Below, one piece after another: positions 731 through 18,280 of a DNA stretch of 43,112 nt. The stretch is taken from the NCBI GenBank assembly GCA_027311065.1, contig DAICZP010000022.1, positions 1 to 43,112 of the forward strand. Direction: 5' to 3'. The DNA comes from Thiomonas sp. (GTDB lineage: Bacteria; Pseudomonadota; Gammaproteobacteria; Burkholderiales; Burkholderiaceae_C). Position numbers and translations under genes: made by a program. The notes beneath the pieces are model-generated. The model was not told where the DNA came from, searched no databases, and worked only from the letters and a program-made list of their open reading frames with translations. The first letter of the stretch is position 1, and every line of letters begins with the position of its first letter.

Positions 731-746
731 ATGAAAGCGGTTTCAT
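731..746. promoter_or_regulatory. LacI-family operator, copy 1
   Basis: ATGAAAGCGGTTTCAT has 6-bp inverted arms (ATGAAA/TTTCAT) around GCGG. It lies ~105 bp upstream of the repeat lipoprotein and shares the TGAAA-N4-TTTCA pattern with sites at 4762 and 16767. No clear -10 element abuts this copy, unlike the other two. Confidence 0.7.
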
Positions 747-849
747 GCGTCGGGATTGCTCGGCTGGTTGGCACCGCAATGTGTGGTTTCGTCAAGAGCA
801 CTGTTCTTTTGCAGGACTTCTGCGCGATCGTGCGCCAAGGAGATGAGGA

Positions 850-2745
850 ATGATGAGAGCAATAAGCAAATTGCGACTGGGATGGTGGGTCCTCGGACTT
901 GCCGGCATGTTGTCTGCCTGCGGTGGAGGGTCCAACGGCACGCCGCTATATACCGTGTCTGGCGTGCTCAGCGGGTTGCCAAGTGGTGCCCAGATCACGC
1001 TGGCGGACAATGCGTCCGATACCTTGACGCTGAACGCCAACGGCAATTTTTCCTTTGCGCAGTCGGTCGCGCAAAGCGGTAATTACGCTGTGACCGTGGC
1101 CACTGCGCCCGCCGGGCAGGTCTGCACCGTGTCCAATGGCTCTGGTACGGGCATCAGCTCCAACGTGACCAACGTCACGGTGGCATGCGCCCCAAGCACC
1201 AGCACCTACACCATTGGTGGCCAGGTTTCAGGTCTTGGCGCGTCGTCCAGTGTGGTGCTGCTCGACAACAACGCAGGCCCCGTGACGGTGAATGCCAATG
1301 GCAGTTTCACCTTTGCCAACGGCATCGCGGCTGGCGGCGGCTACGCCGTCACTGTGGGCACCCAGCCCGCAGGGCAGACGTGTACGGTTTCGAACGCCTC
1401 TGGCGCGGGGGTCAACGCCAATATCACCAACGTCAGCGTGGTGTGTGCGAGCAGCGCTTCCTACACCATCGGCGGCAGCGTCAGCGGCTTGCCCAGCGGG
1501 CAGCAACTGAGCCTGGTTGACAACGGGGACAGCACGCATGCCTTGAGCGTCACCAGCAATGGCGCGTTCACGTTCCCCAATGCGGTCAGCGGCGCTTACG
1601 CCGTCACCGTGGGAACCCAGCCCAGCGGTGCCACGTGCACGGTGAGCAGCGGCTCGGGAACAGCGACCGCCAACGTGACCAATGTTGCGGTCAGCTGCTC
1701 TGTTCCCAACGATACGATCGGGGGCACCGTGAGTGGGTTGAGCAGCGGGCAGACTGCGACGCTGGAACTCAATGGTGACGCGGCCAACACCGTCGCGCTG
1801 ACATCGACCACGTCGAGCTTCACCTTTCCGACGCCGGTCGCGCAAGGCGGCCCCTACGCGGTGACGGTGGCAACCCAACCGACGGCCGAAACCTGCACGG
1901 TGACGAATGGTAACGGTACGGCTGCCGGCAACGTCACCAACGTCGGCGTCAGCTGCGCGACCGCAGCCTCCGCGTTGACCTTCTCCAGTGGTTTTCAGAC
2001 GACGGCAACCAATCCTGCCACCACGGTCGAAGGTGGGGGTTACGGAGGATACGGCGGTAGCAGTCTGGACGGGAACTCCACCTATGCACCTAGCTCGGGC
2101 TTTGGGGCCGGCACGGTCGCGCAGAATTCGCTCACGCCTGCCTCGACCTACATGTACTTTTATTACCAGTTCCCGGCGGCCGCGCTGCCGGCCAACGCTC
2201 CGACCTACGAGTACGTGGGTGCCTACGTGCAGGCACCTGGTGTGACGGCTCTGAACGGTTCGGGCGATACGAAAGGGGTGACAATCAGCGGGCAGAATTA
2301 CCTTCAGTTCACGCTGAACGAGAACGCCGAATGGGCCAACGCCTCCAGCAACAACTTCCTCATCATCCTGACCCTTGGCAAGTACTACAACATCGGCACC
2401 TCGAGTGCACCCACGGTCTGCAGGCTGCAGCTTCAGGACGTCGTCAAGCCAGCCAGCGCCACAGCTGCCAAGACGGCGACCGCCTACAAGGTTGCGCTGA
2501 GCGACTTCACCGTCGCGCAGAACTGCAATCAGCCGATCAGCACGGTCGCGCAGGCCCTGGCAGCGTCGCCGATCTCGCAGATCGACTTCCAGGCCGCGGG
2601 TGGAACGTCAGCGTTGAAGCAGGGGGTCAATGGTCTGGTCAGCAGCTCCAACCTGAGCGTGTCGACGCAGACGACGGGGGGAGCGGCACCGTATCTGGTG
2701 CCGACCACGCTGGCATTGACGGGCGGCATCAGCTTCGCCCCCTGA
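850..2745 (+). CDS. Repeat-containing lipoprotein with four ~80-aa beta-rich repeats and a C-terminal putative glycan-binding domain
   Basis: The start is ATG 850 behind AAGGAG. The N-terminus is a lipoprotein signal with lipobox LSAC (Cys at about residue 25) followed by Gly-Gly-Gly-Ser. Residues ~33-370 hold four tandem repeats of ~80 residues. Each has the skeleton Y-x-I-G-G-x-V-S-G-L, then NG-x-F-x-F, Y-A-V-T-V-x-T-Q-P, C-T-V, and VTNV-x-V-x-C, with two conserved Cys per repeat that could form a disulfide. Residues ~380-631 form a Tyr/Gly-rich domain that resembles the protein fragment at 3-677. Its place in front of the LacI regulator and beta-glucanases, and its operator at 731, suggest an outer-membrane glycan-capture protein that holds its binding domain away from the surface. 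That function is inference; the lipoprotein and repeat calls are direct. Confidence 0.85.
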   Translation: MMRAISKLRLGWWVLGLAGMLSACGGGSNGTPLYTVSGVLSGLPSGAQITLADNASDTLTLNANGNFSFAQSVAQSGNYAVTVATAPAGQVCTVSNGSGTGISSNVTNVTVACAPSTSTYTIGGQVSGLGASSSVVLLDNNAGPVTVNANGSFTFANGIAAGGGYAVTVGTQPAGQTCTVSNASGAGVNANITNVSVVCASSASYTIGGSVSGLPSGQQLSLVDNGDSTHALSVTSNGAFTFPNAVSGAYAVTVGTQPSGATCTVSSGSGTATANVTNVAVSCSVPNDTIGGTVSGLSSGQTATLELNGDAANTVALTSTTSSFTFPTPVAQGGPYAVTVATQPTAETCTVTNGNGTAAGNVTNVGVSCATAASALTFSSGFQTTATNPATTVEGGGYGGYGGSSLDGNSTYAPSSGFGAGTVAQNSLTPASTYMYFYYQFPAAALPANAPTYEYVGAYVQAPGVTALNGSGDTKGVTISGQNYLQFTLNENAEWANASSNNFLIILTLGKYYNIGTSSAPTVCRLQLQDVVKPASATAAKTATAYKVALSDFTVAQNCNQPISTVAQALAASPISQIDFQAAGGTSALKQGVNGLVSSSNLSVSTQTTGGAAPYLVPTTLALTGGISFAP

Positions 2746-2780
2746 GTGTTGCGCGCTGGCGCCGACCGCTCTACGGCTCG

Positions 2781-3629
2781 GTGCTGGCCATGATGCTCGC
2801 CACGCCCGTCGCGCCCGCCGCGACGGGTATCGTGGTCCCCCAGCGCAGCGTGACCGAAGTTCCGGTCACGCTGCGCGGTGCATTCGGGATGCCGGTTCGG
2901 CGGGCGATGGTGGTCACCATGGTGGCGCCGCGCGGCGTCAGGCATGCACCGTTCCTGATCATCCTCCACGGGCGTCCGGCCAGCCGGGATGGGCGCATCC
3001 GTATGGGGCGCGTTGAATTCCCGGGTAACGCCGATTGGTTCGCGTCTCTCGGCTACGTCGTGCTGGTGCCCACGCGCGTCGGTTATGGCGTGACCGGTGG
3101 GCCGGATCTGGAGTTCACCGGGCCCTGTTTTTACAAGGACTACGCCCAGGGAATGCGGCCGGTGGTTCAGGAGACGCGCCAATTGCTGCGGGTCGCCGCG
3201 GCGCTTGCGCAGGTCGATCCGACCCGCGGGCTGATCGTGGGCGACTCGTTCGGGGGCATTGCGGCGATCGCGGTGGCAGCAGCAAAGCTGCCCGGCGTGC
3301 GGGGTGTCGTCAACTTTTCCGGTGGCGATGGCGGCGATCTGCGGCGCCACATCGACCACCCGTGTCGCGGTGACCAGATGGCCGCAACCTTGGCGGGCTA
3401 CGGTCGCACCGATCGCATCCCGAGCCTTTGGCTTTACAGTGCGAATGATCGGTACTGGGGAGTGCGGGAGCCGCGCGTGTGGTTCGGTGCCTTCCGCAGC
3501 ACCGGGGGCGCGGGCCGTTTTGTTGAACTGCCCGCCGACAAAAACAACGGACATTTCATTTTCAATCGCAACCCGCAAGCTTGGCACGGCGTCTTTCGTG
3601 CGTTCGCATCGAGCTTGGGCCTACCCTGA
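2781..3629 (+). CDS. Secreted alpha/beta hydrolase (dienelactone-hydrolase-like)
   Basis: This is an alpha/beta-hydrolase fold protein with nucleophile elbow G-D-S-F-G-G, a later acidic residue in SANDRY and a His in NNGHF, which together make a Ser-Asp-His triad. The N-terminal region (LAMMLATPVAPA) looks like a signal peptide, so it is probably exported. The start is uncertain. The most natural signal peptide would include RWRR immediately upstream, but the frame has no ATG, GTG or TTG there. GTG 2781 and ATG 2790 are the usable starts, and a CTG at 2742 overlapping the previous stop is another possibility. It follows the lipoprotein by only 35 nt and precedes the regulator, so it is probably co-transcribed. 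An esterase that removes acyl groups from glucan is a guess from context. Confidence 0.75.
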   Translation: MLAMMLATPVAPAATGIVVPQRSVTEVPVTLRGAFGMPVRRAMVVTMVAPRGVRHAPFLIILHGRPASRDGRIRMGRVEFPGNADWFASLGYVVLVPTRVGYGVTGGPDLEFTGPCFYKDYAQGMRPVVQETRQLLRVAAALAQVDPTRGLIVGDSFGGIAAIAVAAAKLPGVRGVVNFSGGDGGDLRRHIDHPCRGDQMAATLAGYGRTDRIPSLWLYSANDRYWGVREPRVWFGAFRSTGGAGRFVELPADKNNGHFIFNRNPQAWHGVFRAFASSLGLP

Positions 3630-3648: not shown

Positions 3649-4704
3649 ATGCCACGACTACCTGCGGCGCGCGGCGCCGCTGCCAGCGCGCAAGCGCAGC
3701 CACCACTGGTGACGATCGAAATGGTGGCGCAAGCCGCCGGGGTTTCACCGAGCACGGTTTCGCGCATCCTGAACGGCACCGCGGTCGTCAGCGAGGACAA
3801 GGCAAAAGCCGTGCACGGCGCCATCGAGCGCCTGGGCTATGTTCCGAGCCCGGTGGCGCGCGGGCTTGCAGGAGGGCGTACTTTCAGCGTGGGCGCGGTG
3901 ACGCAATCACTGGACAGCCCGTTCTATGGTGCGGCGTTGCGCGGCATCGAGATCGAGTTGCAGCAGATCGGCTACACGCCGCTTTTCATCAGTGGGCAAT
4001 GGAACGAGATCGACGAGCGTCGTAGTGTCGCTGTGCTGCGGGCGAGGCGGGTGGACGGCATCATCCTGCTCGATGCCCGGCTGAGTGATGGCGAGCTGCT
4101 CCAGCTTGCGGAACAACTCCCTGTGGTGGCGACGGGGCGCACCTTGAGCGCGCCCCGCCTCGCCAGCTTGCGTTTTGATAACTTCCAGGGAGCGGTCGAG
4201 GCCACGCAGTACCTGCTGCGGCTGGGCCACCGGCGCGTCGTCTTCATCGCCGGCGCGCCGGATCATCAGGATGCCCAGGAGCGCCAGCGCGGATATCTGC
4301 ATGCGCTCGCAGTCAGTGGTATCGCTCCCGACGAGAAATTGATCGTCGCGGGTGACTATTCGGAGGCCAGCGGCCTGCGGGCGATCGACGGACTGCTGCG
4401 CCGAGGCGCCGAGTTCTCGGCGATATTTGCCGCCAACGACCAGATGGCGCTGGGTGCGATGCTCGGGTTGTACCGGCATGGCATCGCGATCCCCGATCAA
4501 GTTTCGGTGGTTGGCTTCGACGACCTGCAGGCGGGGCATTTCTCGATTCCTCCCCTGAGCTCGGTCCATCAACCGAGCTGTGAGATGGGGCAGATCGCGG
4601 CGCGTGCCATGGCAGCGCTGCTAGGCGGTACGCGACCGGAACTGCAGCTGCCTGTCCCACGACTGATCGTGCGCGAGTCCGCGGCGCCGTGCCGTCGCGA
4701 GTAA
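3649..4704 (+). CDS. LacI-family transcriptional regulator of the glucan locus
   Basis: The protein has 351 aa, the usual size for the family. Residues ~21-75 are a LacI helix-turn-helix with hinge (VTIEMVAQAAGVSPSTVSRIL, then LGYVP and a hinge-like SPVARGLAGG). The rest is a periplasmic-binding-protein-like effector domain with the usual FIAG, GYLHAL, AIFAANDQMALGAM and VSVVGFDD segments. An AGGAG-like site precedes ATG 3649. It lies between a transport/glycosidase operon and the lipoprotein genes, all preceded by TGAAA-N4-TTTCA palindromes of the kind LacI proteins bind. I infer that it represses the locus until a glucan-derived sugar binds. The effector is unknown; a beta-gluco-oligosaccharide such as laminaribiose or gentiobiose is plausible. 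Confidence 0.93.
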   Translation: MPRLPAARGAAASAQAQPPLVTIEMVAQAAGVSPSTVSRILNGTAVVSEDKAKAVHGAIERLGYVPSPVARGLAGGRTFSVGAVTQSLDSPFYGAALRGIEIELQQIGYTPLFISGQWNEIDERRSVAVLRARRVDGIILLDARLSDGELLQLAEQLPVVATGRTLSAPRLASLRFDNFQGAVEATQYLLRLGHRRVVFIAGAPDHQDAQERQRGYLHALAVSGIAPDEKLIVAGDYSEASGLRAIDGLLRRGAEFSAIFAANDQMALGAMLGLYRHGIAIPDQVSVVGFDDLQAGHFSIPPLSSVHQPSCEMGQIAARAMAALLGGTRPELQLPVPRLIVRESAAPCRRE

Positions 4705-4763: not shown

Positions 4764-4785
4764 GTGTGAAACCGCTTTCACACAT
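4762..4785. promoter_or_regulatory. LacI-family operator, copy 2 (perfect 10-bp arms)
   Basis: The arms ATGTGTGAAA (4762-4771) and TTTCACACAT (4776-4785) are exact inverse complements around CCGC. The core TGAAA starts 4 nt after the putative -10 box. Reading the operator as part of a longer coding frame (a start at 4735) is unlikely; the gene start is placed downstream at 4864. Confidence 0.8.
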
Positions 4786-4863: not shown

Positions 4864-6144
4864 ATGCTGCTGCACCGCCGCCAAATCCTTCAGACCCTGA
4901 CCGTCGGGTGCGCAACGCGCGTGCTGAGCGCATGCTCGCAGGGTGCGCGCCTGTCGGTGCCGTCGCTGGTGGTGGCGGCTTACCCGTCGTTGGATCACGT
5001 CGCTCGCGCCGCGGCACCCGCATGGGCTGGGCTGCATCCGAAGATTCCGCTGCGGGTGATCAGCCGTCAGTTCAACGACCACCATACCGCCATGATGACG
5101 GCACTCGCCACCGGCTCCGAGTTGCCTGACGTGATGGCGATCGAGGTCGGCTTCCTGGGACGCTTCGCCCGCGGCAGCGGTCTGCTCGACCTCGCGGCCG
5201 CGCCTGTCGATATTGGCGCGCAGCGAGCCCACTACACGCCTTACGCGTTCGAACAGGCGCGCCAGCCTGACGGCCAGGTCGCCGCGGCGCCGTGCGACAT
5301 CGGCCCGGGAACCATGCTGGCGCGTATCGACTTGCTGCGTGCGGCCGGTGTGCCGCTGTCGCGCTTGCAGGGGTCGTGGGACGAGTTCGTGCAGGCGGGC
5401 CAGATCATTCGCCAGCGCACCGGAGCATGGCTGGTGCCTGACGCTCGCGATGTGCTGGACATCGTGATTCGCAGTGGCATGGCGGCGGGTGAAGGACTCT
5501 ATTTCGACGGAGCCGGCAGGCCTGCGCTGCAGAGCGCGCGGTTCGCGCGCGGCTTTGCTCTGGCTGCCAGGGTGCGCAGCCTCGGGCTTGACGCGCGGGC
5601 GAAGTCCTGGTCACCGGCATGGGCCAGCGGGATTCGTAACGGACGTATCGCAGTGGTCATGTCCGGGGCCTGGCTTGCTGGCCACATGGCGACCTGGCTG
5701 GCGCCACGCACCGCCGGACGCTGGCGCGCGGCGCAGTTGCCTGCGGGTGCGTGGAGCGCCTATGGGGGCAGTTTCCTCGCCGTGCCGCGTCGACTGCCGG
5801 CTCGACGTCGAGCGCTGGCGTGGGACTTCCTGCGCCTGCTGACGTTGCAGCGTCAGCGCCAGTTGGATGCCTTCGCCAGCGTCGATGCCTTCCCCGCACT
5901 GGTCGACACGTATGACGACGCCGCCTTCGATGTCCCAGTTGCTTTTCTCGGCGGTCAACGCGCGCGACGTCTGTGGCGCACGGCGGCGCTGAACATACGC
6001 GCCGTCGGCGTGCATGCGCAAGACGGTTTCGCGGGCGAAGTTGTCGGTGATGCGCTTTACGACGTCCTGGAACGCGGTGTCGAGCAAGGCGTTGCGCTGC
6101 GCCGGGCGCAACAGCTGTTGCTGCAGCGGGTGGGGCAGGCGTGA
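4864..6144 (+). CDS. ABC transporter sugar-binding lipoprotein (family 1 solute-binding protein)
   Basis: This extracellular solute-binding protein delivers oligosaccharide to the permeases encoded next. From ATG 4864 it has 426 aa. The N-terminus carries HRRQILQ, a possible twin-arginine motif, and a lipobox LSAC, so it is probably anchored to a membrane on the periplasmic side. Family 1 features include an early HHTAMMTALATGSELPDV segment, where related proteins have a quota/ALASG/PDV motif, and an aromatic-rich C-terminal lobe. The frame is open up to 4735 but that stretch holds the promoter and operator, so I chose the start just before the signal sequence. Its stop overlaps the start of the first permease gene. 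The ATPase partner is encoded far downstream at 15629. Confidence 0.85.
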   Translation: MLLHRRQILQTLTVGCATRVLSACSQGARLSVPSLVVAAYPSLDHVARAAAPAWAGLHPKIPLRVISRQFNDHHTAMMTALATGSELPDVMAIEVGFLGRFARGSGLLDLAAAPVDIGAQRAHYTPYAFEQARQPDGQVAAAPCDIGPGTMLARIDLLRAAGVPLSRLQGSWDEFVQAGQIIRQRTGAWLVPDARDVLDIVIRSGMAAGEGLYFDGAGRPALQSARFARGFALAARVRSLGLDARAKSWSPAWASGIRNGRIAVVMSGAWLAGHMATWLAPRTAGRWRAAQLPAGAWSAYGGSFLAVPRRLPARRRALAWDFLRLLTLQRQRQLDAFASVDAFPALVDTYDDAAFDVPVAFLGGQRARRLWRTAALNIRAVGVHAQDGFAGEVVGDALYDVLERGVEQGVALRRAQQLLLQRVGQA

Positions 6145-7118
6145 TGCGAGCGCATGCCACGACCCAGGTTGCAACGGCACGCCGCCGCATGCCAACCCTG
6201 TCACCGACATGGGCTCCGTACGTCATGCTGGCGCCATTCGTTGCGCTGTTTCTCGTGTTCGGGCTGTTTCCGCTGGGCTTTTCGCTGTACCTGGCGTTTC
6301 ATCGCTGGCAGCCTGCCGCTGGGCTGCGTGCAATGCATTTCGTCGGCCTTGGCAACTTCGCCTTCGCCTTGCGCGACCCCTGGTTCTGGTTGTCCATGCG
6401 CAACACGCTATGGCTGGCGTTGGTGGCAGGGACAGCGCAGCATCTCGTCGCCATTCCACTGGCGGTGTTCCTTCAGGGATTGGCCGCGCGTGTCCGCGAC
6501 GTTCTGGTTGGTGCCTATTTCATGCCCTACATCACGTCGACGGTTGCCATCGCGATCTTGTTCAGCGCGCTGTTTTCGCTTCACCATGGGCTGCTCAACC
6601 AGTTGTTGCAAGGGTTGTCGCGCGTGCCATTACTCGGGGCATGGTTGCCGGCCCATGCGATCGACTGGCTCGGGCAGCCACGCTTTGTCAAACCGACGAT
6701 CGCCGCGGTGGTGTTCTGGCGTTATCTTGGGTTCAACGTCGTCTTGTATCTGGCGGCGTTGCAGACCATCGACGGCGATTTGTACGAAGCGGCGCAACTC
6801 GATGGCGCGAGCGCGCTCCAGCGCTTCTGGCACATCACGCTGCCGGCGCTGCGGCCGATGATGTGGTTTGCCGTCACCCTCAGCGTCATCGGCGGCCTGC
6901 AGTTGTTCGACGAGCCTTTCATTCTGACCGGTGGCCACGGCGGCCCGGATCAGGCCGGCATGACGGCAGCGTTGTACTTCTATCGCGAAGCATTTGATTT
7001 CGATGACTTTGGCGGGGCAGCCGCCATGTCGTGGATCTTGTTCGGCTTCGTCGCGCTGTTGACCTGGCTGACCGGGCGTGCCTTCGCATCGAAGTCGACA
7101 GGGGAGTCGGGAGCATGA
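6144..7118 (+). CDS. ABC sugar transporter permease (MalF/UgpA type)
   Basis: This is an inner-membrane permease with about six transmembrane helices. The EAA loop that contacts the ATPase is clear (YEAAQLDGASALQRFWHITLP), about 80 residues from the C-terminus. ATG 6144 overlaps the previous stop (TGATG), a sign of translational coupling; a GTG at 6141 is an alternative. It pairs with the second permease that starts at 7115. The whole set is a CUT1-type importer, a class that takes up di- and oligosaccharides. Neighbouring glucanases suggest beta-gluco-oligosaccharides as substrate. Confidence 0.93.
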   Translation: MRAHATTQVATARRRMPTLSPTWAPYVMLAPFVALFLVFGLFPLGFSLYLAFHRWQPAAGLRAMHFVGLGNFAFALRDPWFWLSMRNTLWLALVAGTAQHLVAIPLAVFLQGLAARVRDVLVGAYFMPYITSTVAIAILFSALFSLHHGLLNQLLQGLSRVPLLGAWLPAHAIDWLGQPRFVKPTIAAVVFWRYLGFNVVLYLAALQTIDGDLYEAAQLDGASALQRFWHITLPALRPMMWFAVTLSVIGGLQLFDEPFILTGGHGGPDQAGMTAALYFYREAFDFDDFGGAAAMSWILFGFVALLTWLTGRAFASKSTGESGA

Positions 7119-7963
7119 GCGCCACGCATGCGCATCGCGCACTGATGGTCGCTCCATCGAGAGTGGCTGCGTACGCGCTGGTCGGGATCGGCGCGGTGGT
7201 GATGGCGGCGCCACTGTATTTCATGTTCGTGTTCGCCACCCACAGCCGCGAAGCGATCTTCGCATCGCCGCCGCCATTGGGCCTGGGCAGCCAGGCCTGG
7301 AGCAATCTTGGCATCCTGGTGTCGGCGATCCCGTTCTGGCGCAACGTCGTCATGAGTCTGTACGTGGCGTGCGTATCGACCTTGCTGACCTTGATGCTCT
7401 GTTCGATGGCCGGCTATGCGTTCGCCATGTTCCGTTTCCGCTTCCGCGGTGCGCTGTTCCTGCTCGTGCTCGGCACGATGCTCGTGCCACAGTTCATGAA
7501 CATGATCCCGATGTTCATGGTCATGGATGCGCTTGGCTGGATCAACCAGCCGCGCGCGCTGTACGTGCCGGGTGCGGCCAGTGCCTTCGGCATTGTCTTC
7601 ATGCGCCAGTACATCGCGAGCGCAGTGCCGCGAGATCTCATCGAAGCCGCACGTCTGGATGGCTGCGGCGAGTTTTCCATCTACGTGCGCATCGTGCTCC
7701 CGTTGATCAGGCCGGCGCTTGGAACGCTGGGCTTGATCAGCTTCATCGCGTCGTGGAACAGCTTTCTGATGCCCCTGATCGTCATGCGCTCGCCTGGCAT
7801 GTACACCGTCCCGCTGGCCTTGCGAAGCCTGCAAAGCCCGACGGATACGCAGTGGGGGGCGCTGATGGCTGGTTCTGCCATTGCCACACTGCCGCTCGTG
7901 GTGATGTATTTCCTGTATTCGCGCCGTCTGGTCGACGGTCTGACTGCCGGTGCCGTCAAGTAA
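7115..7963 (+). CDS. ABC sugar transporter permease (MalG/UgpE type)
   Basis: The second permease of the CUT1 importer, 282 aa with about six transmembrane helices. The EAA loop is LIEAARLDGCGEFSIYVRIVLP. Its ATG overlaps the stop of the first permease (ATGA at 7115-7118). The NSFLMPLIV segment near the C-terminus is typical of MalG-like subunits. An 88-nt gap follows before the GH1 gene, with no obvious terminator, so transcription probably continues. Confidence 0.93.
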   Translation: MSATHAHRALMVAPSRVAAYALVGIGAVVMAAPLYFMFVFATHSREAIFASPPPLGLGSQAWSNLGILVSAIPFWRNVVMSLYVACVSTLLTLMLCSMAGYAFAMFRFRFRGALFLLVLGTMLVPQFMNMIPMFMVMDALGWINQPRALYVPGAASAFGIVFMRQYIASAVPRDLIEAARLDGCGEFSIYVRIVLPLIRPALGTLGLISFIASWNSFLMPLIVMRSPGMYTVPLALRSLQSPTDTQWGALMAGSAIATLPLVVMYFLYSRRLVDGLTAGAVK

Positions 7964-8051: not shown

Positions 8052-9410
8052 ATGCAACAAGAACTCTCCATCGATTCCCGAGCGCTGGCAGCGCGCTTCC
8101 CGCGCGACTTCACGTGGGGCGTAGCCACCAGTGCATTCCAGATCGAAGGCGCGACGCAACAGGACGGGCGCGGGGAATCGATCTGGGACGCGTTTTGCAG
8201 ACGCACCGGGGTGATTGCCGATGCCAGCAATGGGGATGTTGCCTGCGATCACTATCACCGTTGGCAGGATGATCTCGATCTGATTGCCGGGCTCGGCGTC
8301 AACGCTTATCGATTCTCTGTCGCCTGGCCGCGTGTGCAGCCGCTCGGGCAGGGCGCCTGGAACGCCGCCGGCCTTGCGTTTTACGACCGCCTGCTGGATG
8401 GATTGTTGCAGCGCGGCGTCGCCCCTCACCTGACACTCAACCATTGGGACTTGCCGCAGGCATTGCAGGAGCAGGGGGGCTGGGCAGCCCGTGATACCGT
8501 GCATCGATTCGTTGACTACGGGCTGGAGCTGGCGCGTCGCTTTGGTGACCGCCTGAGTTCGTTGACCACGCACAACGAGCCGTTCGTGCAGGCGGTGCTG
8601 GGCAACGAGACGGGAATCTTTGCGCCTGGAATCCATCATCGGCGCACGGCGATGCAGGTTGCCCACCATCTGCTTCTCAGCCATGGACTGGCGCTGCGGG
8701 CGCTTCGAGCCGAGGGTGTGGACTGCCGGCTTGGCATCGTGCTCAATCTGGCACCGGTCGAGGCCGCCAGCGATTCCGAGGCGGATCGCGCACGAGCGCG
8801 TCTCGAGGACGGACGCCTGGTGCGCTGGTACATCGATCCTCTGCTGCGTGGGAGTTACCCCGACGACGTCTGGATGGACCTGGGCGCGGACGTTCCGGAG
8901 ATACACGGAGATGACATGAAGATCATCTCCACGCCAATGGATTTCCTGGGCGTCAACTATTACTCGCGCAGCGTGGTCAATGCGGGTGGTGCGGTCGACC
9001 CGAAACAGCTTGGAGCCAAGGTGACGGACATGGGTTGGGAGGTGTACCCGGAAGGGTTGACCAAGTTGCTGTGCAGGCTTCACCGTGACTATTCGATCCC
9101 GGACCTGTACGTCACGGAGAACGGCGCTGCATTCCCTGACGAATGGCGCGACGGCGGCGTGCATGACGTGGAACGCAGAGACTACATCGCGCGGCACATT
9201 GCCGCGGCGGGGGCGGCCCTCGCTGCCGGCGTGCCTCTGAAGGGTTTCATGGTGTGGAGCCTGATGGACAACTTCGAGTGGGCCAGTGGCTACGCGAAGC
9301 GTTTCGGCATCGTGCATGTCGACTACGCGACCCAGCGTCGGACGCCGAAAGCCAGTGCGATCTGGTACCGTGACTTTCTGCTGGGCATGCGCCGACGCGA
9401 AGCAGCTTGA
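8052..9410 (+). CDS. GH1 beta-glucosidase, cytoplasmic
   Basis: A family GH1 beta-glucosidase of 452 aa, the normal length. The N-terminal GH1 signature is FTWGVATSAFQIEGA. The acid/base is E176 in TTHNEP and the nucleophile is E356 in YVTENG; the aglycone/-1 site segment WSLMDNFEWASGY is intact. There is no signal peptide, so it acts in the cytoplasm on imported beta-gluco-oligosaccharides and releases glucose. The start ATG 8052 has only a weak ribosome site. The enzyme probably handles 1,3- and perhaps 1,6- or 1,4-linked disaccharides; GH1 sequence alone does not fix the linkage. Confidence 0.95.
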   Translation: MQQELSIDSRALAARFPRDFTWGVATSAFQIEGATQQDGRGESIWDAFCRRTGVIADASNGDVACDHYHRWQDDLDLIAGLGVNAYRFSVAWPRVQPLGQGAWNAAGLAFYDRLLDGLLQRGVAPHLTLNHWDLPQALQEQGGWAARDTVHRFVDYGLELARRFGDRLSSLTTHNEPFVQAVLGNETGIFAPGIHHRRTAMQVAHHLLLSHGLALRALRAEGVDCRLGIVLNLAPVEAASDSEADRARARLEDGRLVRWYIDPLLRGSYPDDVWMDLGADVPEIHGDDMKIISTPMDFLGVNYYSRSVVNAGGAVDPKQLGAKVTDMGWEVYPEGLTKLLCRLHRDYSIPDLYVTENGAAFPDEWRDGGVHDVERRDYIARHIAAAGAALAAGVPLKGFMVWSLMDNFEWASGYAKRFGIVHVDYATQRRTPKASAIWYRDFLLGMRRREAA

Positions 9411-10816: not shown

Positions 10817-12199
10817 TTGAACACTCGTATCGTGCTTGCCAGCATGCTCGGTGCGGCAACGCTGAGCGCGCATGCCGCCGACTTCGGACCGCTAAGCCTG
10901 ACTGGATTCGCCAAGGATGAGGTCGGTGTGGCCAACAACGTCGGTAGCGTTGCCAACAACACCAGCGCGCCTCCCGTGTGCTACGGCGATTCGAGAGAGG
11001 TACTGCCGTCTTCGGCAAAGTGCTTCCCGACCAGCCTCGGCACCGTGACCACGCCAACGCCCATGTACCAGCTCACGGGTGATCTCAAGCACGAGTTCGA
11101 CAATGGTCTGAGAGTCGATGCCGTGCTCACGAAGCGCTTGCGTAACGGTTCGAATGACATCGTCGGGCAGAACTGGTTCGAGAAATACGTGGGCTTGTCC
11201 TATCCATCCGTGGGCTCGCTCAAGGTCGGCACGCAGCTGGCGCGCGCCTGGTCGCGGCAGGACGGTTTCAGCTATCCGATTGGCCTGTCCACGGCATGGA
11301 GCGAGACCGGCGCCGGCTTTGGTCTGTTCCCGCAAGCCGTACGCTTGACGTCGCGGACTCTCAACTATTCCTTTGGCAAGCTGACCCTCGAGGCAACCTA
11401 CGCCACCAACAACAAATATGACCAATACACCGGACCCCAGGGTCCGGACCAGGCGTCGACACCGCAGATGCTTGAGCTGTTTGCGCAGTTTTCGAACCAC
11501 AACAACTTGATTGAATTCACGTTCGAAACCAGCCACGGTGCTGGGCAGTCGTCCTGGGGCAAGGCGCCGTTCGTGGGAGCATCGAACCTGCCCGTGCTCG
11601 GCCCGGGCGGGGCTGGTGGAAGCGCGACCAACATCTACAGTGAGTTGCCGCGTCAGAGCGTGGCCATCCTGGAGGGGGACCACTGGTTCACGCCCCAGTG
11701 GATGCTGACCTGGGGACTTCGACACAGCTACTGGTCGGGATCGGCCATTACCTGTGGCTTCACGAGCAATGTCGGCAACGGACAGTCCGGATGCCTGTAC
11801 CCGTCGCAAGGTTTCAACTATGCGAATGGGATGTACAGCGGCGTCTCCTACCAGCCCGGCTATTCAGCGTCGACGAACGACTTTCTGCTCGGCTTGAGTC
11901 ACTACCGCGGGCTTTGGACCTACACCGCCGGCATGGTCTATCTCGGACGTGCGCGCACCAGCAATCCGACGGAGTGGGGCCAGAGCAACTGGGCGGTGAT
12001 CACGAATCTGGGTGCATACCGCAAGTTGCCCGAGGTCTATCGCAACCTGAGCGTGTATGGCGGCTTCGGCTACGTGCGCTTTGGGCGGCTTGGTCCCGCA
12101 CCTTTGAGCATGCCGAGCAATACCCAGTTCTCCGGGATCAATTCGTGGGTGTCGCGCTCCGGCGAGACATTCACGCTTGGCGCGCTGGTGACCTTCTGA
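10817..12199 (+). CDS. Outer-membrane beta-barrel porin of the glucan operon
   Basis: The protein starts at TTG 10817, chosen because AAGGAG sits 6 nt upstream (10805-10810) and because the product then begins with a clean signal peptide ending SAHA-ADFG. An ATG at 10796 would place the ribosome site inside the gene. The mature part has many amphipathic beta strands with aromatic girdles (for example WFEKYVGLSY, TLEATYATNNKYDQY) and ends in ...TLGALVTF, the C-terminal Phe that outer-membrane barrels need for assembly. The size (460 aa) fits a 16- to 18-strand porin. By position it should admit gluco-oligosaccharides to the periplasm. I do not recognise a specific named family. Confidence 0.85.
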   Translation: MNTRIVLASMLGAATLSAHAADFGPLSLTGFAKDEVGVANNVGSVANNTSAPPVCYGDSREVLPSSAKCFPTSLGTVTTPTPMYQLTGDLKHEFDNGLRVDAVLTKRLRNGSNDIVGQNWFEKYVGLSYPSVGSLKVGTQLARAWSRQDGFSYPIGLSTAWSETGAGFGLFPQAVRLTSRTLNYSFGKLTLEATYATNNKYDQYTGPQGPDQASTPQMLELFAQFSNHNNLIEFTFETSHGAGQSSWGKAPFVGASNLPVLGPGGAGGSATNIYSELPRQSVAILEGDHWFTPQWMLTWGLRHSYWSGSAITCGFTSNVGNGQSGCLYPSQGFNYANGMYSGVSYQPGYSASTNDFLLGLSHYRGLWTYTAGMVYLGRARTSNPTEWGQSNWAVITNLGAYRKLPEVYRNLSVYGGFGYVRFGRLGPAPLSMPSNTQFSGINSWVSRSGETFTLGALVTF

Positions 12200-12219: not shown

Positions 12220-14538
12220 ATGCCAACTATTTCAAAACTCATCGCCGGCGCCTCCGCGGCGCTGGTGATGCTGCCGGCGCTCGGTGCGACGGTCAATCCC
12301 AGGATCCCCGCCGGACTTGGCGGATACTTTGCCCAGCCCCACGCTGGCGGGCTGTTCTCGTCGGCGGGGCCCAAGCCGCCTCAGGCACCCTGGCGAACGC
12401 CGGCAATGCTGGCCCAGGCGGCACCAACGAATCAGTGGTATTCCTCGGTCATGTTCACCCGCTGGTCGGAGCCGCTCTTCGCCTTTCCGGTGAGTTACCA
12501 GGCCGTGGCTTCGGGTTGGGAGGTGGGCGTACCCACACAGTCCATCCACTCCGCGGCCGACGGGTTCCGCGAAGTTGTATGGCCTCACCATGCCGATCTG
12601 ACGGTGCGTCCCGACTTCAAGCCCGAGTCCGCATTGCTCGCGGGGCATGGTGACTGGAGCGTGACGGTGTCGATGCCAGGCCAGGGTCACAAATTCCTTG
12701 CCACCGCCGTGCAGGGGTCTCCATTCAGTTATTACCAGACCGACGGCAAGGACGTCACGCTCGAACTGGCCGCAGCGGCTCAGCAGCACACTGACATGTC
12801 CGGTCGCGCTGGCGAGGTGTTCACCGTCAACGGCCAGCCGTGGGCGGTCTATGGACCCGAGGGCGGACACGTGGAGTGGGTGTCGGCGACCGAACTCAAG
12901 CTGGACCTGCCTCCGGGGAAGGGTTATTTCTCGATCGCTGCCTTGCCTGACACCAACGCCACGACCTTGCAGCAATTCGCCCGGCATGCCTACGCATTCG
13001 TGACCGACACGCGTGTGCATTGGCACTACGACCAGGCGGCGAGCCAGGTCGACACCGACTACACCTACACCACACAGCCCATGCAGGGCGGGCAGCAGGT
13101 GCCGCTTGTGGGTCTGTTGCCGAACCTGTGGTGGGGCCAGCACATTCCGGGTCTTTCGCAACAGGGCTATGCCAGCGTGCGAGGCCGCGTCAGACTTCTG
13201 GCCGCGAACCACTTTCAGACCCGCCTCAATTACGAGGGTATCGTTCCCTACTGGCCCGCATTGGCCGCGAATGCCGGCGGCAGCAGGGTCGATGCTCTGC
13301 TGGGCGGCGACGTCGCGAAAATGTCCTCGGCCTTTGGCACACAGAGCCAGGGAACCTACTGGATCGGCAAGGGGCTCGGGCGCGCGGCGCAACTGATGAA
13401 TATCGGTGAGGTGCAGGGCCGGACGGGCGACGCGAAAGCGCTGGAAGAAATGATCAAGCGCCATTTCCGCCGGTTTTTTTCGGGCACGAACGCAAACAGC
13501 TACTTTGTCGTCGACCGTTCGCTCGGAACGACGGTTGGTTATCCGTCCGAGTACGGCAGCGTGAGCCATATGAACGATCATCATTTCCACTACGGCTACT
13601 GGATCCTGGCCGCAGCCCAACTGGCACTGCGGGATCCGCACTGGGCCGACAAGGATCAATGGGGTTCGATGGTCGATTTGCTGGTCGACGACATTGCGAC
13701 GGATCACCATGGTCTCGCAAGCTATCCATTTTTGCGCAACTTCGACCCCTATGAAGGGCACTCGTGGGCCAGCGGAGACGCGATGATGGCGGACGGCAAT
13801 AACCAGGAGTCGTCATCAGAGGCAGTCAACGCGTGGGCCGGACTCATTTTCTGGGGGGCTGCGACCGGCGACACCCGGCTGCGCGATCTCGGGATCTACC
13901 TCTACACCACCGAGGTGCATTCGATCGACATGTACTGGTTCGATCTTCACCATGTGGTGTTCGCTCCCGCCTATCGGCGCGGGCTGGCGGCACAGGTTTT
14001 CGGCGACAAGTACTCCTACAACACGTGGTGGACCCAGAATCCAAGGGAGGTGCAGGGGATCAATCTGTTGCCCCTGACGACCGCATCGACCTATCTCGGA
14101 CGTGATCCGCGGTACGTCGAGTCTTTCTTCGACAACATGAAGACCATGAGCGAGCGCTATGCCAAGGCGGGAATGTCAGACGGCACGCCGTCTGACATCT
14201 GGCAGGATGTATTCGCCGAGTACCGTGCGCTGGCTGATCCGGCCCAGGCCATGGCCGACTGGAACTCGCAGGGCTCGACCGAGGACGGTGACAGTCGGAC
14301 CCACGCCTACTACTGGATCCGCAGCATGCAGGCCATGGGCCGTCCGGATTTCGACATCCACGCCGATACTCCGCTATACGCGGTGTTCAAAACGCCTGCC
14401 GGTGTCGTCACGCATCTGGCCTGCAACCCGGGCGCACAGCCCTTGCAGGTGCACTTCAGCGACGGCGCAAGCCTGGTTGTCGCCCCCCATGACCTCGGCG
14501 TCGCGCGCTCTCAAACGGGCACCGGCTCCGCACAGTGA
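12220..14538 (+). CDS. GH81 endo-1,3-beta-glucanase, secreted
   Basis: A family GH81 endo-beta-1,3-glucanase (laminarinase), 772 aa including a signal peptide (residues ~1-22, ending PALGA). Hallmark segments are NDHHFHYGYW near residue 452, with D453 as likely acid, and EGHSWASG followed by NNQESSSEAVNAW, with E530/E534 as likely base region. These match the established GH81 active-site layout. ATG 12220 has an AAGGA site and lies 21 nt after the porin stop. It would cut beta-1,3-glucan such as laminarin, curdlan or fungal wall glucan in the periplasm or outside the cell. No carbohydrate-binding module is attached. Confidence 0.95.
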   Translation: MPTISKLIAGASAALVMLPALGATVNPRIPAGLGGYFAQPHAGGLFSSAGPKPPQAPWRTPAMLAQAAPTNQWYSSVMFTRWSEPLFAFPVSYQAVASGWEVGVPTQSIHSAADGFREVVWPHHADLTVRPDFKPESALLAGHGDWSVTVSMPGQGHKFLATAVQGSPFSYYQTDGKDVTLELAAAAQQHTDMSGRAGEVFTVNGQPWAVYGPEGGHVEWVSATELKLDLPPGKGYFSIAALPDTNATTLQQFARHAYAFVTDTRVHWHYDQAASQVDTDYTYTTQPMQGGQQVPLVGLLPNLWWGQHIPGLSQQGYASVRGRVRLLAANHFQTRLNYEGIVPYWPALAANAGGSRVDALLGGDVAKMSSAFGTQSQGTYWIGKGLGRAAQLMNIGEVQGRTGDAKALEEMIKRHFRRFFSGTNANSYFVVDRSLGTTVGYPSEYGSVSHMNDHHFHYGYWILAAAQLALRDPHWADKDQWGSMVDLLVDDIATDHHGLASYPFLRNFDPYEGHSWASGDAMMADGNNQESSSEAVNAWAGLIFWGAATGDTRLRDLGIYLYTTEVHSIDMYWFDLHHVVFAPAYRRGLAAQVFGDKYSYNTWWTQNPREVQGINLLPLTTASTYLGRDPRYVESFFDNMKTMSERYAKAGMSDGTPSDIWQDVFAEYRALADPAQAMADWNSQGSTEDGDSRTHAYYWIRSMQAMGRPDFDIHADTPLYAVFKTPAGVVTHLACNPGAQPLQVHFSDGASLVVAPHDLGVARSQTGTGSAQ

Positions 14539-14577: not shown

Positions 14578-15606
14578 ATGCATAAAACCCTCATCGCGCT
14601 TGCCCTCGCCACCACGCTGCTGGCCGGATGCGGCTCGGGCTCGATCTCCTCGCTCAACAGCGCACCAAGTACCTCCGCCAGCCAGCCAGCCGGAGCGGCC
14701 GCGACGCTGGCCTCGGCCTACAAGACCACCGTGTGGCAGGACAATTTCGCCAACGATCCCACTGGCACGCCAAGCAGCGCATACTGGGCCGCCGAAACCG
14801 GCAACGGCGCCGAGTACGGGAATCGTGGCTGGGGCAACAACGAGGCGGAGTACTACCTGCCGAGCAACGCCACCGTCTCCGGCGGTTACCTCGATCTGCA
14901 CGGGCATGCTGACCCCAGCGTCCTCAACGACGCTTGCGGTGTGAGCAGCGGGAATTGCCTGTTCTCGTCCGCGAAATTGACCTCGGTTCAGACCGTTGAC
15001 CTCAGCAAGCCCGGATTCCTCGAGATCAAGGCGTCGTTGCCGACTTCCACCGGATCGTGGCCGGCGCTTTGGCTGCTGCCCGGTACCAGTCCGGGATCGA
15101 CTTTCCCGCCGAGCACCGCGCAGCTTGCGACCCAGCCGACGTGGCCGATTGGCGGTGAAATTGATATCGCCGAGTGGTTCGGTACGTACTTCTCGGGCCA
15201 GAATTCGACCGTGCAGAGCACGTTGCACCTTCCGTCTGGAACTCCGAACCCCAACTACACGGACTCTTACGAGTACCAGCAAACCACGCTGAGCAGCCCC
15301 ATCGCTGGCAACTTCCATCTTTACCAGCTCGCATGGACCCCGGGGCAGATCCAGTTTGCCGTGGATGATCAGGTGGTCATGACCTGTACCCAGAGCACCA
15401 TGCGCTGCACGCCGACCGTGGCCGGACTTGCACCCTATCCGGCTTCATCGCTGTGGCCGTATGGCACCACCTACAAGAGCTACTACCTGATCATGAATCT
15501 GGCGATCGGTGGCAATCTTGGCGCACCGCACCAGGACAACACCCAGGTTCCCGCCAACTACGACCAGACCATGAATGTCGCCTACGTGCGCTACATGACG
15601 CCATGA
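14578..15606 (+). CDS. GH16 beta-glucanase lipoprotein (laminarinase-like)
   Basis: A 342-aa GH16 family enzyme with lipoprotein signal (lipobox LLAGC, Cys 18) followed by a Ser/Ala-rich linker of ~30 residues. The catalytic signature GEIDIAEW gives E194 (nucleophile), D196 and E199 (acid/base). WGNNEAEYY near residue 85 and WPALWLLPG before the active site are typical of 1,3(4)-beta-glucanases of the laminarinase branch. The anchor suggests a location on the outer membrane or in the periplasm, where it works with the GH81 enzyme 39 nt upstream. It lies directly before the ATPase gene in the same operon. Confidence 0.95.
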   Translation: MHKTLIALALATTLLAGCGSGSISSLNSAPSTSASQPAGAAATLASAYKTTVWQDNFANDPTGTPSSAYWAAETGNGAEYGNRGWGNNEAEYYLPSNATVSGGYLDLHGHADPSVLNDACGVSSGNCLFSSAKLTSVQTVDLSKPGFLEIKASLPTSTGSWPALWLLPGTSPGSTFPPSTAQLATQPTWPIGGEIDIAEWFGTYFSGQNSTVQSTLHLPSGTPNPNYTDSYEYQQTTLSSPIAGNFHLYQLAWTPGQIQFAVDDQVVMTCTQSTMRCTPTVAGLAPYPASSLWPYGTTYKSYYLIMNLAIGGNLGAPHQDNTQVPANYDQTMNVAYVRYMTP

Positions 15607-15628
15607 GACTTTTGACGATCCGTGCATC

Positions 15629-16693
15629 ATGAGTTCGGTGCAATTGCTGGGCCTGCGCAAGATCTATGCGGATCGCGTGGTCATCGACGACATCGACCTC
15701 GAAGTGCGCAGCGGCGAGTTCATGGTGTTCGTGGGCCCGTCCGGCTGCGGCAAGACCACGACGCTGCGCATGATTGCCGGGTTGGAGTCGATCACTGCGG
15801 GCGAGCTGCGCATCGACGGGGTGCGTGCGAATGCGTTACGGCCGGCTGATCGGGGCGCAGCGATGGTCTTTCAGAGCTATGCCCTGTACCCGCACATGAC
15901 CATTGCTGAGAACATGGGGTTCAGCCTTCGAATGTCGGGCGTCGGGCGCGCACGGCGACGTGAAGTCGTCGAGCGCGTCGCACGCACCTTGCGCATCGAA
16001 CACCAGCTCGAACGCTACCCGCGTCAGCTCTCGGGGGGCGAGCGTCAGCGTGTCGCCATTGGACGCGCCATCGTGCGGCACCCCAAAGTGTTTCTGTTCG
16101 ACGAGCCCTTGTCCAACCTTGATGCCGAGTTGCGCGTGAGCATGCGCCTGGAGCTGTCCCGGCTGCACCGGGAGCTGGACGCAACCATGATCTACGTCAC
16201 CCATGATCAGGTCGAGGCCATGACCTTGGGCGACCGCATCGCGGTGTTTCGAGACGGCCGTATCGAGCAGGTCGGCGAACCCATGCACCTCTACGAGCGA
16301 CCGTGCTCGGAGTTCGTTGCCGGCTTCCTCGGTGCGCCGCGCATGAACATGCTCGATCGGCCTGGCACCGGGGCGACTCCCGCGCATGTCAAATTGTGGA
16401 CCGCACTTGGTGGGGAGGCCATCGAAGGGGCCATGCGCCTGGGGGTGCGCGCGGAGCACTTGCAGGTTCATGAAGCAGGCTATGGGGAGGCATGCGGACT
16501 GCTCGAGTTCGTCGAGCATCTTGGTGGCTTGTCGCTGCTGCATGTCCGCCTGGACGGTCTGGATTGCGTCTGGATTGCGCAGGGCCTCGGCTCCGAAAAT
16601 GCATCCAGGACGCGTGGACATCGTCTTGGTCTGCGCGCGCTGCCAGGGCGTGTGCATGCGTTTGATGCGGCGGGCCGCAACGTGCGGGCCTGA
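15629..16693 (+). CDS. ABC sugar transporter ATPase (MalK/UgpC/MsmK type)
   Basis: The energising subunit for the permeases at 6144-7963. Motifs in order: Walker A GPSGCGKTT (residues 36-44), Q-loop Q82, signature LSGGE (134-138), Walker B VFLFDEP (D158, E159), switch His192 in YVTHD. The C-terminal ~110 residues form an OB/TOBE regulatory domain as in CUT1 ATPases; 354 aa is the usual length. It follows the GH16 gene by 22 nt and is the last gene of the operon. It is separated from its permeases by five enzyme and porin genes, an uncommon but workable order. Confidence 0.95.
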   Translation: MSSVQLLGLRKIYADRVVIDDIDLEVRSGEFMVFVGPSGCGKTTTLRMIAGLESITAGELRIDGVRANALRPADRGAAMVFQSYALYPHMTIAENMGFSLRMSGVGRARRREVVERVARTLRIEHQLERYPRQLSGGERQRVAIGRAIVRHPKVFLFDEPLSNLDAELRVSMRLELSRLHRELDATMIYVTHDQVEAMTLGDRIAVFRDGRIEQVGEPMHLYERPCSEFVAGFLGAPRMNMLDRPGTGATPAHVKLWTALGGEAIEGAMRLGVRAEHLQVHEAGYGEACGLLEFVEHLGGLSLLHVRLDGLDCVWIAQGLGSENASRTRGHRLGLRALPGRVHAFDAAGRNVRA

Positions 16694-16757
16694 CGCGCCG
16701 ATCGCACCCGCGACGAAGGCCGGGAAAGTCCTAGGCCCGCGTGCAGATCACTGCCGC

Positions 16758-16780
16758 TATGCTTTGTGAAAGCGCTTTCA
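16758..16780 (+). promoter_or_regulatory. Promoter -10 with LacI-family operator, copy 3
   Basis: TGAAAGCGCTTTCA (16767-16780) is a perfect palindrome. A -10-like TATGCT (16758-16763) ends 4 nt before the TGAAA core, exactly as at the 4762 site; no good -35 was found. It lies ~120 bp upstream of the symporter gene. Confidence 0.75.
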
Positions 16781-16897
16781 GATCATTCATGGTCTGCTTC
16801 CGGATTTCGCGGATGAGCGATGGTGACTTTGACGGTGGGCTGCGGCGCGGACGTGCGGCAGCTTCGCAGAATGCGGCTCGGTTGAGGGGTGTGGTGC

Positions 16898-18280
16898 ATG
16901 AAAAGCGTGTCGTCAAGACTTTCAATTGCAGAAAAAGTCGGGTATGGGTTCGGTGATTTCGCCTCCAACCTGTACTGGCAGATGTTTTCCATCTTCATCG
17001 CCAAGTACTACACCGATGTATTTCTGCTCAGCGCTGCGCAGATGGGTACGATGATGTTCGTCACGCGTTTCGGTGACGCGTTCATCGACCCCGTGATCGG
17101 GGCCGTCGCCGACCGCACGCATACCCGCTGGGGACACTTCCGGCCGTATCTGCTCTGGATGTGCCTGCCCATGGCTGCTGCTGCCGTGCTCGCTTTTACG
17201 GTTCCTCATCTGGCTGGAAACGCAAAGGTGGTGTATGCATACGTGACGCTGAGTTTGATGATGCTGACGTATTCGGCCATCAACATTCCCTACTCGGGAC
17301 TGCTCGGTGTGCTCACGCCAAGCTCCGCGGAGCGGACCAGCGTGTGCTCGTATCGGTTCGTGATGGCATTGCTGCCGGTCTTCATCATTGTCAACAGCGC
17401 ACTGCCGCTGGCGCGTTACTTTGGTGGCAGTGAGAACTCGCCACGGGGTTGGCAAGCGAACATGATTCTGTATGCGGCTCTCGCCGTGGTGCTGTATATC
17501 GTGACCTTCGCCATGACCCGGGAGCGCGTGCAGCCGCAACCGCGCGCGGAGGGATCATTTCGCAGCGACCTCCAGGACCTCAAGCGCAATCGACCATGGT
17601 TGGTGCTATGCGCTGTTGGCGTGGCGGCACTGACCTTTTCCAACATTCGCAATACCGTGGCGATCTACTACTTCCAGAACGTCGTGCCGCACGGCGGCGG
17701 CTACTTCGGTCCCGTGATGACGTCTGGTGCGTTGGCGTTCATCGTGGGCGTGATGGCCACCTCGCCGCTGTCACGCCGGTTTGGCAAGCGTAACTTGTAC
17801 ATCGCTGCGATGGGCAGCGCCGGCCTGTTCTGCATTGGCTTTTATTTCGTGCCCCCGGCGGACATCACCCTGGTGTGGATCGTGCAGACACTGATCAGTC
17901 TGTGCGCAGCGCCAACTGCGCCACTGGTCTGGGCCATGTATGCCGATACTGCGGACTTTTCCGAATGGAAGAATGGTCGCCGTGCGACTGGCCTGGTGTT
18001 TTCCGCGGCATCATTCGCCCAGAAGTTCGGCTGGGCCGTCGGAGGTGCCGGCACCGGCTACCTGCTGTCTTTCTTTGGTTACCTGCCGAACATCGCGCAA
18101 AGCGCCCGGACCGTGCACGGCATCATCATGATGAGCAGCTTGATCCCCGCGATCGGTGCGCTGGTGGCGGTCATTGCCTTGCTGTTCTATGAAATTGATG
18201 AGCCCATGGTGCGACGCATGGGACACGAGCTCGATCTGCGCCGCCGCGCCGCGGCCTCGGACTCCCAGCCAGCGCATTGA
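16898..18280 (+). CDS. GPH-family glycoside:cation symporter (MelB/XynP-like)
   Basis: A 12-helix inner-membrane transporter of the glycoside-pentoside-hexuronide family. Family signs are an N-terminal KVGYGFGDFASNLYW, DAFIDPVIGAVADRTHTRWGHFRPYL in the first cytoplasmic region, NIPYSGLLGVLTP, and MYADTADFSEWKNGRRATGLVFSA later on. The asparagine and aspartates that bind the coupling cation are present. ATG 16898 has a GAGGGG site; GTG 16889 is a less likely start. It has its own operator and probably takes up disaccharides or oligosaccharides released from glucan with H+ or Na+. It gives the locus a second import route beside the ABC system. A convergent mgsA gene ends ~100 bp downstream. Confidence 0.93.
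   Translation: MKSVSSRLSIAEKVGYGFGDFASNLYWQMFSIFIAKYYTDVFLLSAAQMGTMMFVTRFGDAFIDPVIGAVADRTHTRWGHFRPYLLWMCLPMAAAAVLAFTVPHLAGNAKVVYAYVTLSLMMLTYSAINIPYSGLLGVLTPSSAERTSVCSYRFVMALLPVFIIVNSALPLARYFGGSENSPRGWQANMILYAALAVVLYIVTFAMTRERVQPQPRAEGSFRSDLQDLKRNRPWLVLCAVGVAALTFSNIRNTVAIYYFQNVVPHGGGYFGPVMTSGALAFIVGVMATSPLSRRFGKRNLYIAAMGSAGLFCIGFYFVPPADITLVWIVQTLISLCAAPTAPLVWAMYADTADFSEWKNGRRATGLVFSAASFAQKFGWAVGGAGTGYLLSFFGYLPNIAQSARTVHGIIMMSSLIPAIGALVAVIALLFYEIDEPMVRRMGHELDLRRRAAASDSQPAH

Follow-up and report, generated by a model that had tools for sequence, protein, structure and literature searches.

The window analysed here is a contig of 43,112 nucleotides from Thiomonas sp. (assembly GCA_027311065.1, contig DAICZP010000022.1), and its positions 731 to 18280 hold a gene cluster which, judged from its sequence, is very probably a dedicated LacI-controlled beta-1,3-glucan utilisation regulon. 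An initial annotation had described the cluster as a complete locus for the capture, import and degradation of beta-1,3/1,6-glucan in a betaproteobacterium. All genes of the locus lie on the forward strand with open reading frames, and the GH81, GH16, GH30 and GH1 enzymes, the ATP-binding cassette (ABC) importer, the GPH symporter and the LacI regulator named in that annotation were all found in place and matched by Pfam. Position 731 is the first base of an operator (731-746) in front of the gene for a lipoprotein, here called LIPO (850-2745), and a second lipoprotein, P14, is encoded immediately before it, with its 3′ part at 1-677.

The GH81 endo-beta-1,3-glucanase (12220-14538) is matched by Pfam in its C-terminal domain (E 4.9e-52), and residues 49-762 of 772 align to the solved enzyme 6fop (E 2.6e-154), which places the protein among the endo-beta-1,3-glucanases of that family. 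It keeps the stretches NDHHFHYGY and NNQESSSEA in the alignment to solved enzymes. The GH16 lipoprotein (14578-15606, lipobox LAGC; Pfam E 1.9e-12) is of the laminarinase type, with its GEIDIAE aligned to GEIDIME of the solved laminarinase 2vy0 (E 6.8e-23). ExDxxE is the GH16 motif. From the family assignments both proteins are predicted to be active glucanases. The GH1 enzyme (8052-9410) is matched by Pfam (E 2.1e-150) and by the NCBIfam beta-glucosidase model (601.9 bits, cut-off 478.5). The GH30 enzyme (9427-10779; Pfam E 1.3e-65) belongs to its family and has QNEP and TEAC aligned to solved enzymes; its nearest solved proteins are human glucosylceramidase and 2wnw, entitled 'activated by transcription factor SsrB', which we take to be SrfJ. 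It scored 187.9 bits with the NCBIfam BT3312-type model of endo-beta-1,6-glucanases, for which the cut-off is 700, and the beta-1,6 part of the glucan claim is thus unproven. All calls of signal peptides and lipoboxes were made by eye, without a predictor. Read in this way, GH81 with its signal peptide and GH16 with its lipobox are exported while GH30 and GH1 lack a signal peptide, the same division as first annotated, and the signal peptide of GH30 is also missing in two sister starts and in one distant homologue that were inspected.

Two importers are encoded. The ABC importer has the composition of the CUT1 type, with a sugar-binding protein (4864-6144; SBP_bac_1, E 1.2e-7), a MalF-type permease (6141-7118) and a MalG-type permease (7115-7963), which give two BPD_transp_1 matches in Pfam (E 1e-14 and 1.8e-18), and a MalK/UgpC-type ATPase with a TOBE domain (15629-16693; ABC_tran and TOBE_2 in Pfam). 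The ATPase gene is separated from the permease genes by those of GH1, GH30, the porin, GH81 and GH16. The GPH-family sugar:cation symporter (16889-18280) is matched by MFS_2 (E 4.8e-96) and by NCBIfam TIGR00792 (380.7 bits, cut-off 231.35). Both importers thereby belong to their families, and their transported substrate is predicted.

Regulation is the strongest new evidence. The LacI/GalR-family protein (3649-4704; Pfam LacI E 8.6e-14, plus Peripla_BP) is the presumed regulator of the locus, and palindromic, CG-centred operators of the LacI/CcpA type, with the pattern TGAAANCGNTTTCA, stand before target genes, as in LacI/GalR pathway regulons. Three exact sites are found in the locus: ATGAAAGCGGTTTCAT at 731-746, 105 bases upstream of the LIPO start, GTGAAACCGCTTTCAC at 4766-4781, 84 bases upstream of the start of the sugar-binding protein, and GTGAAAGCGCTTTCAG at 16766-16781, 109 bases upstream of the symporter start. 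When up to two mismatches were allowed the window held four matches, the fourth being a two-mismatch site at 36496 outside the locus, against 0.25 expected, and none of 100 shuffles reached four. In the whole genome of 2.76 Mb the exact pattern occurs five times and the reversed pattern never; the other two exact sites lie before a second lipoprotein gene, whose product shares about 44% identity with LIPO in the C-terminal domain. At L063 (G000:C137) a second operator, at 6003-6016, precedes the lipoprotein paralogue by 251 bases and is 311 bases away from the end of the contig, just beyond which there may be a divergent gene of the regulon. The three operators in the locus are predicted sites of the local LacI protein, and its binding and inducer are likewise predictions.

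The genome of the window is a metagenome-assembled genome (MAG) of 2.76 Mb in 143 contigs, 91.9% complete. Its RpoB shares 93% identity with that of two genomes of its own genus; the figure is 80% for Ideonella, 78% for both Limnohabitans and an Oxalobacteraceae MAG, and 74% for Ferrovum and Gallionellaceae MAGs, compared with 68, 69 and 59% for three gammaproteobacterial MAGs (11 of 14 queried genomes matched, the three misses being MAGs). These identities bear out the betaproteobacterial host, which on sequence is a member of an uncultured genus of the Burkholderiales. Relatives were sampled as 60 genomes, comprising 28 of the genus, eight from other genera of the family and 24 from other families of the order. 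GH81 was found in 11 of the 28 genus genomes and in none of the eight or the 24; in two more (G004 and G007) the left half of the locus is present and the contig ends inside GH1, so that 13 of 28 hold some or all of it. Species genomes scanned for GH81 gave 40 loci, nine from the genus and 31 from outside it. Many outside-genus contigs are short, and the counts of neighbours that follow are lower bounds: among the 31 loci the porin was found in 24, LacI in 17, GH1 in 14, GH17 in 13, P14 and the ABC genes in 12 each, GH16 in nine, the hydrolase and GPH in eight each, a LIPO-type protein in seven, and GH30 and glucokinase in one each. Most of the set is present in two named isolates, Limnohabitans sp. 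G3-2 and B9-3 (L032 and L033), which have GH81, the porin, the ABC genes, GH1, GH16, LacI and operators; no P14 was seen in the stretch of B9-3 that was covered. Ideonella sp. B508-1 has GH81, the porin and the operator on a 5 kb contig. The recurrence of the gene set in other Burkholderiales, which had been proposed as a check, is thereby confirmed in public genomes. In a plasmid collection GH81 matched nine records, all below 60% identity and none from the Burkholderiales.

The operators recur with the genes. The 40 related loci (590,710 bases) contain 42 exact sites, distributed over 23 loci, and no site of the control pattern; 39 of the 42 precede, by at most 1,300 bases, a gene homologous to one of the locus or to the neighbouring glucokinase, and three do not. 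In the near-complete sister genome G021 all six sites lie inside the locus, in a stretch of 24 kb, and precede GH1, the porin, the binding protein, the hydrolase/P14, LIPO and GPH. At least two sites occur in 12 of the 13 genus genomes with the locus. When G or C was required at both variable places, the only sites left outside the genus were three in G034 and one in G051, and none were left in locus-free genomes of the genus.

Of all the genes, that of the porin-like protein (10796-12199) follows GH81 most closely. Both occur in the same 11 of the 60 relatives and neither elsewhere among them, and the porin stands beside GH81 in 31 of the 40 loci. Among 399 genomes sampled from the order, three matched the porin profile at E 1e-20, that of the window and two others, and in those two GH81, ABC genes, GH1 and operators surround the porin. 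No known Pfam porin family matched above its cut-off, with weak beta-barrel matches in one or two of 12 members, and the profile had no match at E 1 among solved chains. The annotation as a porin is thus supported by its place and by a signal peptide seen by eye, together with those few beta-barrel matches among homologues, although it falls below every Pfam cut-off, and on these grounds the protein is a putative outer-membrane channel.

Capture at the surface would fall to the two lipoproteins, both putative surface glucan-binding proteins. They had been annotated as repeat lipoproteins; LIPO (lipobox LSAC) is indeed one, with about four N-terminal repeats of some 90 amino acids, one stretch of which matches SdrD_B, whereas P14 is a non-repeat lipoprotein cut by the contig start. 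The 5′ part of P14 lies beyond the contig end, and the protein is complete in sisters, with a lipobox and about 240-310 amino acids in homologues. Strong P14 matches occur in 12 genus genomes, namely ten of the 11 with GH81 (the exception is G017, which is cut) and two with a cut locus. No Pfam family matched P14 past its cut-off, the best being a sub-threshold MBG_3 in two of 18 members (E 3.3e-4). The P14 model (pLDDT 79, from 18 sequences) has as its top Foldseek match a 7zkq chain of a complex I assembly intermediate (E 8.3e-6), presumably the CIA30/NDUFAF1 protein, and it also matches CBM11 (1v0a, E 4.2e-5, TM 0.60 by target) and CBM30 (1wzx, E 9.5e-5). The fold thus resembles CBM11 of Clostridium thermocellum (1v0a, 6r3m), but the identity is 10-12% without a sequence-profile match and P14 is a free-standing lipoprotein; the modelled likeness to CBM11 is one of fold alone, and by sequence P14 falls outside that family. 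The C-terminal domain of LIPO (residues about 371-631) has no Pfam match in the window, and its model (pLDDT 70, from nine sequences) matched nothing at E 0.001, the best being 7zkp (E 1.1e-3), an entry with NDUFAF1. Between the P14 and LIPO families there is a weak match (hhalign probability 82%), and some outside-genus LIPO matches are lipoproteins that share the N-terminal repeats and carry a GH17-like domain instead. By these models P14 appears to be a beta-sandwich that folds like CBM11 glucan-binding modules and CIA30, and LIPO weakly so, and a glucan-binding role for both is suggested by fold, lipobox, operator and gene company. The alpha/beta-hydrolase gene between LIPO and LacI (about 2790-3629, start codon uncertain) has a GDSFGG motif and, judged by eye, exported homologues; its only family match, to DLH, is borderline (22.1 bits, cut-off 21).

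In one respect the locus is less complete than first described. A second GH16 and at least two GH17 genes are present in all nine genus loci, and the window lacks both. Seven of the nine have them between GH16 and MalK; in L007 and L008 they adjoin either the first GH16 or the GH81 region, and MalK is elsewhere or was not found. The GH17 and GH16 of L010 were confirmed by Pfam, and the second GH16 had no signal peptide in three sisters inspected. An assembly gap or a chimera in the MAG, instead of a real loss, would fit a genome in 143 contigs that is 91.9% complete, but GH16 and MalK stand open on one contig only 22 bases apart (15607-15628), the genome holds a single GH16, and a sister GH17 protein found no match in this 92% complete MAG while the same GH17 queries, run together, match all nine sister loci and not the window. 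Such an artefact is accordingly unlikely. The Pfam GH17 model was also run on the genome and was set aside, as it was silent in all 14 control genomes too. The lineage of the window has likely lost the second GH16 and the GH17 genes, a loss which the 92% completeness of the MAG makes likely and not proven; it would then carry a trimmed version of the locus in which these genes were lost or never present.

The importers differ between lineages. Among the 31 outside-genus loci 12 have ABC only, eight GPH only, none both and 11 neither (Fisher p 0.012), whereas the nine genus loci have both in five, ABC only in three and GPH only in one. One ABC-only genus locus (L004) has a flank long enough that a GPH gene at its usual place would have been seen. 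The operator is present in 11 of the 12 outside-genus ABC loci. The split between ABC and GPH follows the clades of a GH81 tree built by a quick method without bootstraps, and since it does so and many contigs are short, the exclusion is claimed as a pattern and not as independent events. There thus appear to be two import wirings, and the genus of the window would hold both under the ABC-type operator. In the same tree the GH81 contigs labelled Planktophila (Actinomycetota; L015) and Janthinobacterium (L039) cluster tightly with L017; they look like mis-binned contigs whose labels are probably wrong, and the labels were disregarded as taxonomy.

The gene content, its recurrence and the tight local operator set are direct observations, and with the family assignments and the aligned active-site stretches they bear out a locus for the capture, import and breakdown of beta-1,3-glucan. 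Under the proposed mechanism, P14 (CBM11-like) and LIPO (weakly so) would bind the polymer, either on the cell surface or within the periplasm, and the exported GH81 and the GH16 lipoprotein would cut it to oligosaccharides. These would pass the outer membrane through the GH81-linked porin and be brought inside by the CUT1 importer and the GPH symporter, after which cytosolic GH30 and GH1 would yield glucose for phosphorylation by the neighbouring glucokinase. LacI would occupy the three cre-like operators in front of the genes for lipoprotein, importer and symporter, and an imported beta-glucan oligosaccharide would release it. The substrate is predicted to be a laminarin-type beta-1,3-glucan, and algal and fungal food cannot be told apart by sequence. 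The mine-sediment site abbreviation SKS, which begins some sister MAG names, is found in the passages of PMC9948709 consulted, and JA6 and ZJ1, which begin others, are not found there. Acid mine drainage and Euglena paramylon as the food are no more than a guess.

It is possible, if doubtful, that the locus mainly serves another beta-glucan, such as fungal wall glucan, mixed-linkage glucan or cellobiose-type oligosaccharides, in place of a laminarin-type storage glucan. The best solved relative of the sugar-binding protein, 8bfy, is named as a cellobiose-binding protein, some entries of CBM11, near the P14 fold, are titled as complexes with beta-1,3-1,4-linked tetrasaccharides, and GH1 and GH30 are broad families. 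Against this stand the GH81 and laminarinase-type GH16, the lack of any cellulase family among the locus proteins, the GH17 partners in sister loci and the tracking of GH81 by the porin. A weapon against fungi or algae, in which exported GH81 and GH16 lyse walls and feeding is secondary, is very improbable: enzymes of these families can attack fungal walls, but the importers, the cytosolic GH1 and GH30, the lipoprotein-anchored GH16 and the operator shared by importer and lipoprotein genes indicate uptake rather than secretion alone.

Several observations weigh against the laminarin-type regulon proposed here. An exact operator site is missing in 17 of the 40 related loci, and outside the genus it accompanies just one of the eight GPH loci and four of the 11 with neither importer. 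In the sister G017, whose contig starts inside GH30, GH81 is present without any site. Conversely, three of the 15 genus genomes without the locus hold one exact site each (12 hold none), 15 of the 32 locus-free genomes outside the genus hold one to three each, so the pattern has a background, and the reversed control pattern is present in six of the 60 genomes. The CBM-like fold depends on models from 18 (P14) and nine (LIPO) sequences, the latter weak, and lectins, other beta-sandwich domains and capsids appear further down the P14 match list. The specificity of GH30, LacI binding, induction and growth on glucan are all predictions.

The laminarin utilisation loci of Bacteroidetes combine surface polymer binding, endo-cleavage, oligosaccharide import and a local regulator with SusC/SusD. 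The window locus has no SusC/SusD, as the initial annotation stated, and would use another outer-membrane route and another regulator class; no TonB or SusD family was found among the locus proteins, which sets the locus apart from the Bacteroidetes type and, with no TonB-dependent transporter among them, from TonB-type laminarin clusters. Laminarin clusters in gammaproteobacterial MAGs of a North Sea bloom (PMC8371827) combine GH3, GH16, GH17, GH30 and occasionally GH81 and have no SusCD tandem, and such combinations and the absence of SusCD are shared with the window locus. The structures resembling polysaccharide utilisation loci in that paper use other TonB-dependent transporters, and clusters without them were also searched there, whereas the window locus has a porin-like protein, an ABC importer, GPH, two lipoproteins and one LacI-type operator and is in the Burkholderiales. 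Locus L073 comes from G034, a genome of a different genus in this family. It shares LacI, the sugar-binding protein, MalFGK, GH1, GH30, a GH16 and glucokinase, and three TGAAAGCGCTTTCA operators are present as well. A TonB-dependent receptor stands there beside a tryptophan-halogenase-family gene, and GH81, the porin and P14 were unmatched in the G034 genome. At 7622-12038 of L073 the receptor and halogenase-family genes adjoin, with a TGAAAGCGCTTTCA site upstream. No described Burkholderiales or Limnohabitans laminarin locus was found in searches of an open-access library, with most subscription papers outside that scope.

The LacI/GalR regulator of glucanases in the Clostridiales is, we assume, GlyR3. 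PMC5171806 mentions LacI/GalR control of beta-1,3-glucanases in that order and names TGAAAGCGCTTTCA as the cre operator for CcpA, itself a member of the LacI/GalR family. The window locus is like CcpA and other cre-like LacI/GalR regulons in operator sequence, regulator family and control of glucanases, but its LacI would be a local pathway regulator in a betaproteobacterium. Laminarin is also mentioned for Verrucomicrobia in PMC8353197 and PMC5345797.

The glucokinase (18767-19825, reverse strand) is a convergent neighbour with no operator in front and would likely take the next step for the released glucose. Between it and the symporter, and convergent to the latter, lies a methylglyoxal-synthase-like gene with an MGS domain (18378-18842, reverse strand), for which six of nine sister loci have a homologue. 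That of L010 is followed, at the position of the glucokinase, by what looks by eye like a glucose-6-phosphate isomerase gene. A sulfatase-like remnant at 19729-20600, between glucokinase and HPPD (SGSH_C, E 4.7e-7, one short frame), looks decayed. A second porin (24365-25597, reverse strand), of the carbohydrate-selective OprB family, lies beside an NRAMP transporter, and 36106-42963 is an ordinary housekeeping flank with tRNA-Cys, tRNA-Gly, FabI, RimP, NusA and IF-2.

The function is ordinary and the arrangement is new. New here are the operator set, the recurrence, the partner lipoproteins, which pass no Pfam cut-off in the domains studied, and the lineage-dependent importers. Tentatively, P14, LIPO and the porin could together capture beta-1,3-glucan at the outer membrane and let it in without TonB; such a system would do the work of SusC/SusD with unrelated parts and be spread across Burkholderiales and other Proteobacteria. 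Laminarin-type glucans are a main algal carbon store, and most descriptions of their breakdown concern marine Bacteroidetes and Gammaproteobacteria that use TonB. The cultured freshwater Limnohabitans strains (L032 and L033) make the system testable. If the reading is true, a system that recurs in the Burkholderiales and has a porin family, surface lipoproteins, an operator and an importer choice of its own would be a second route.

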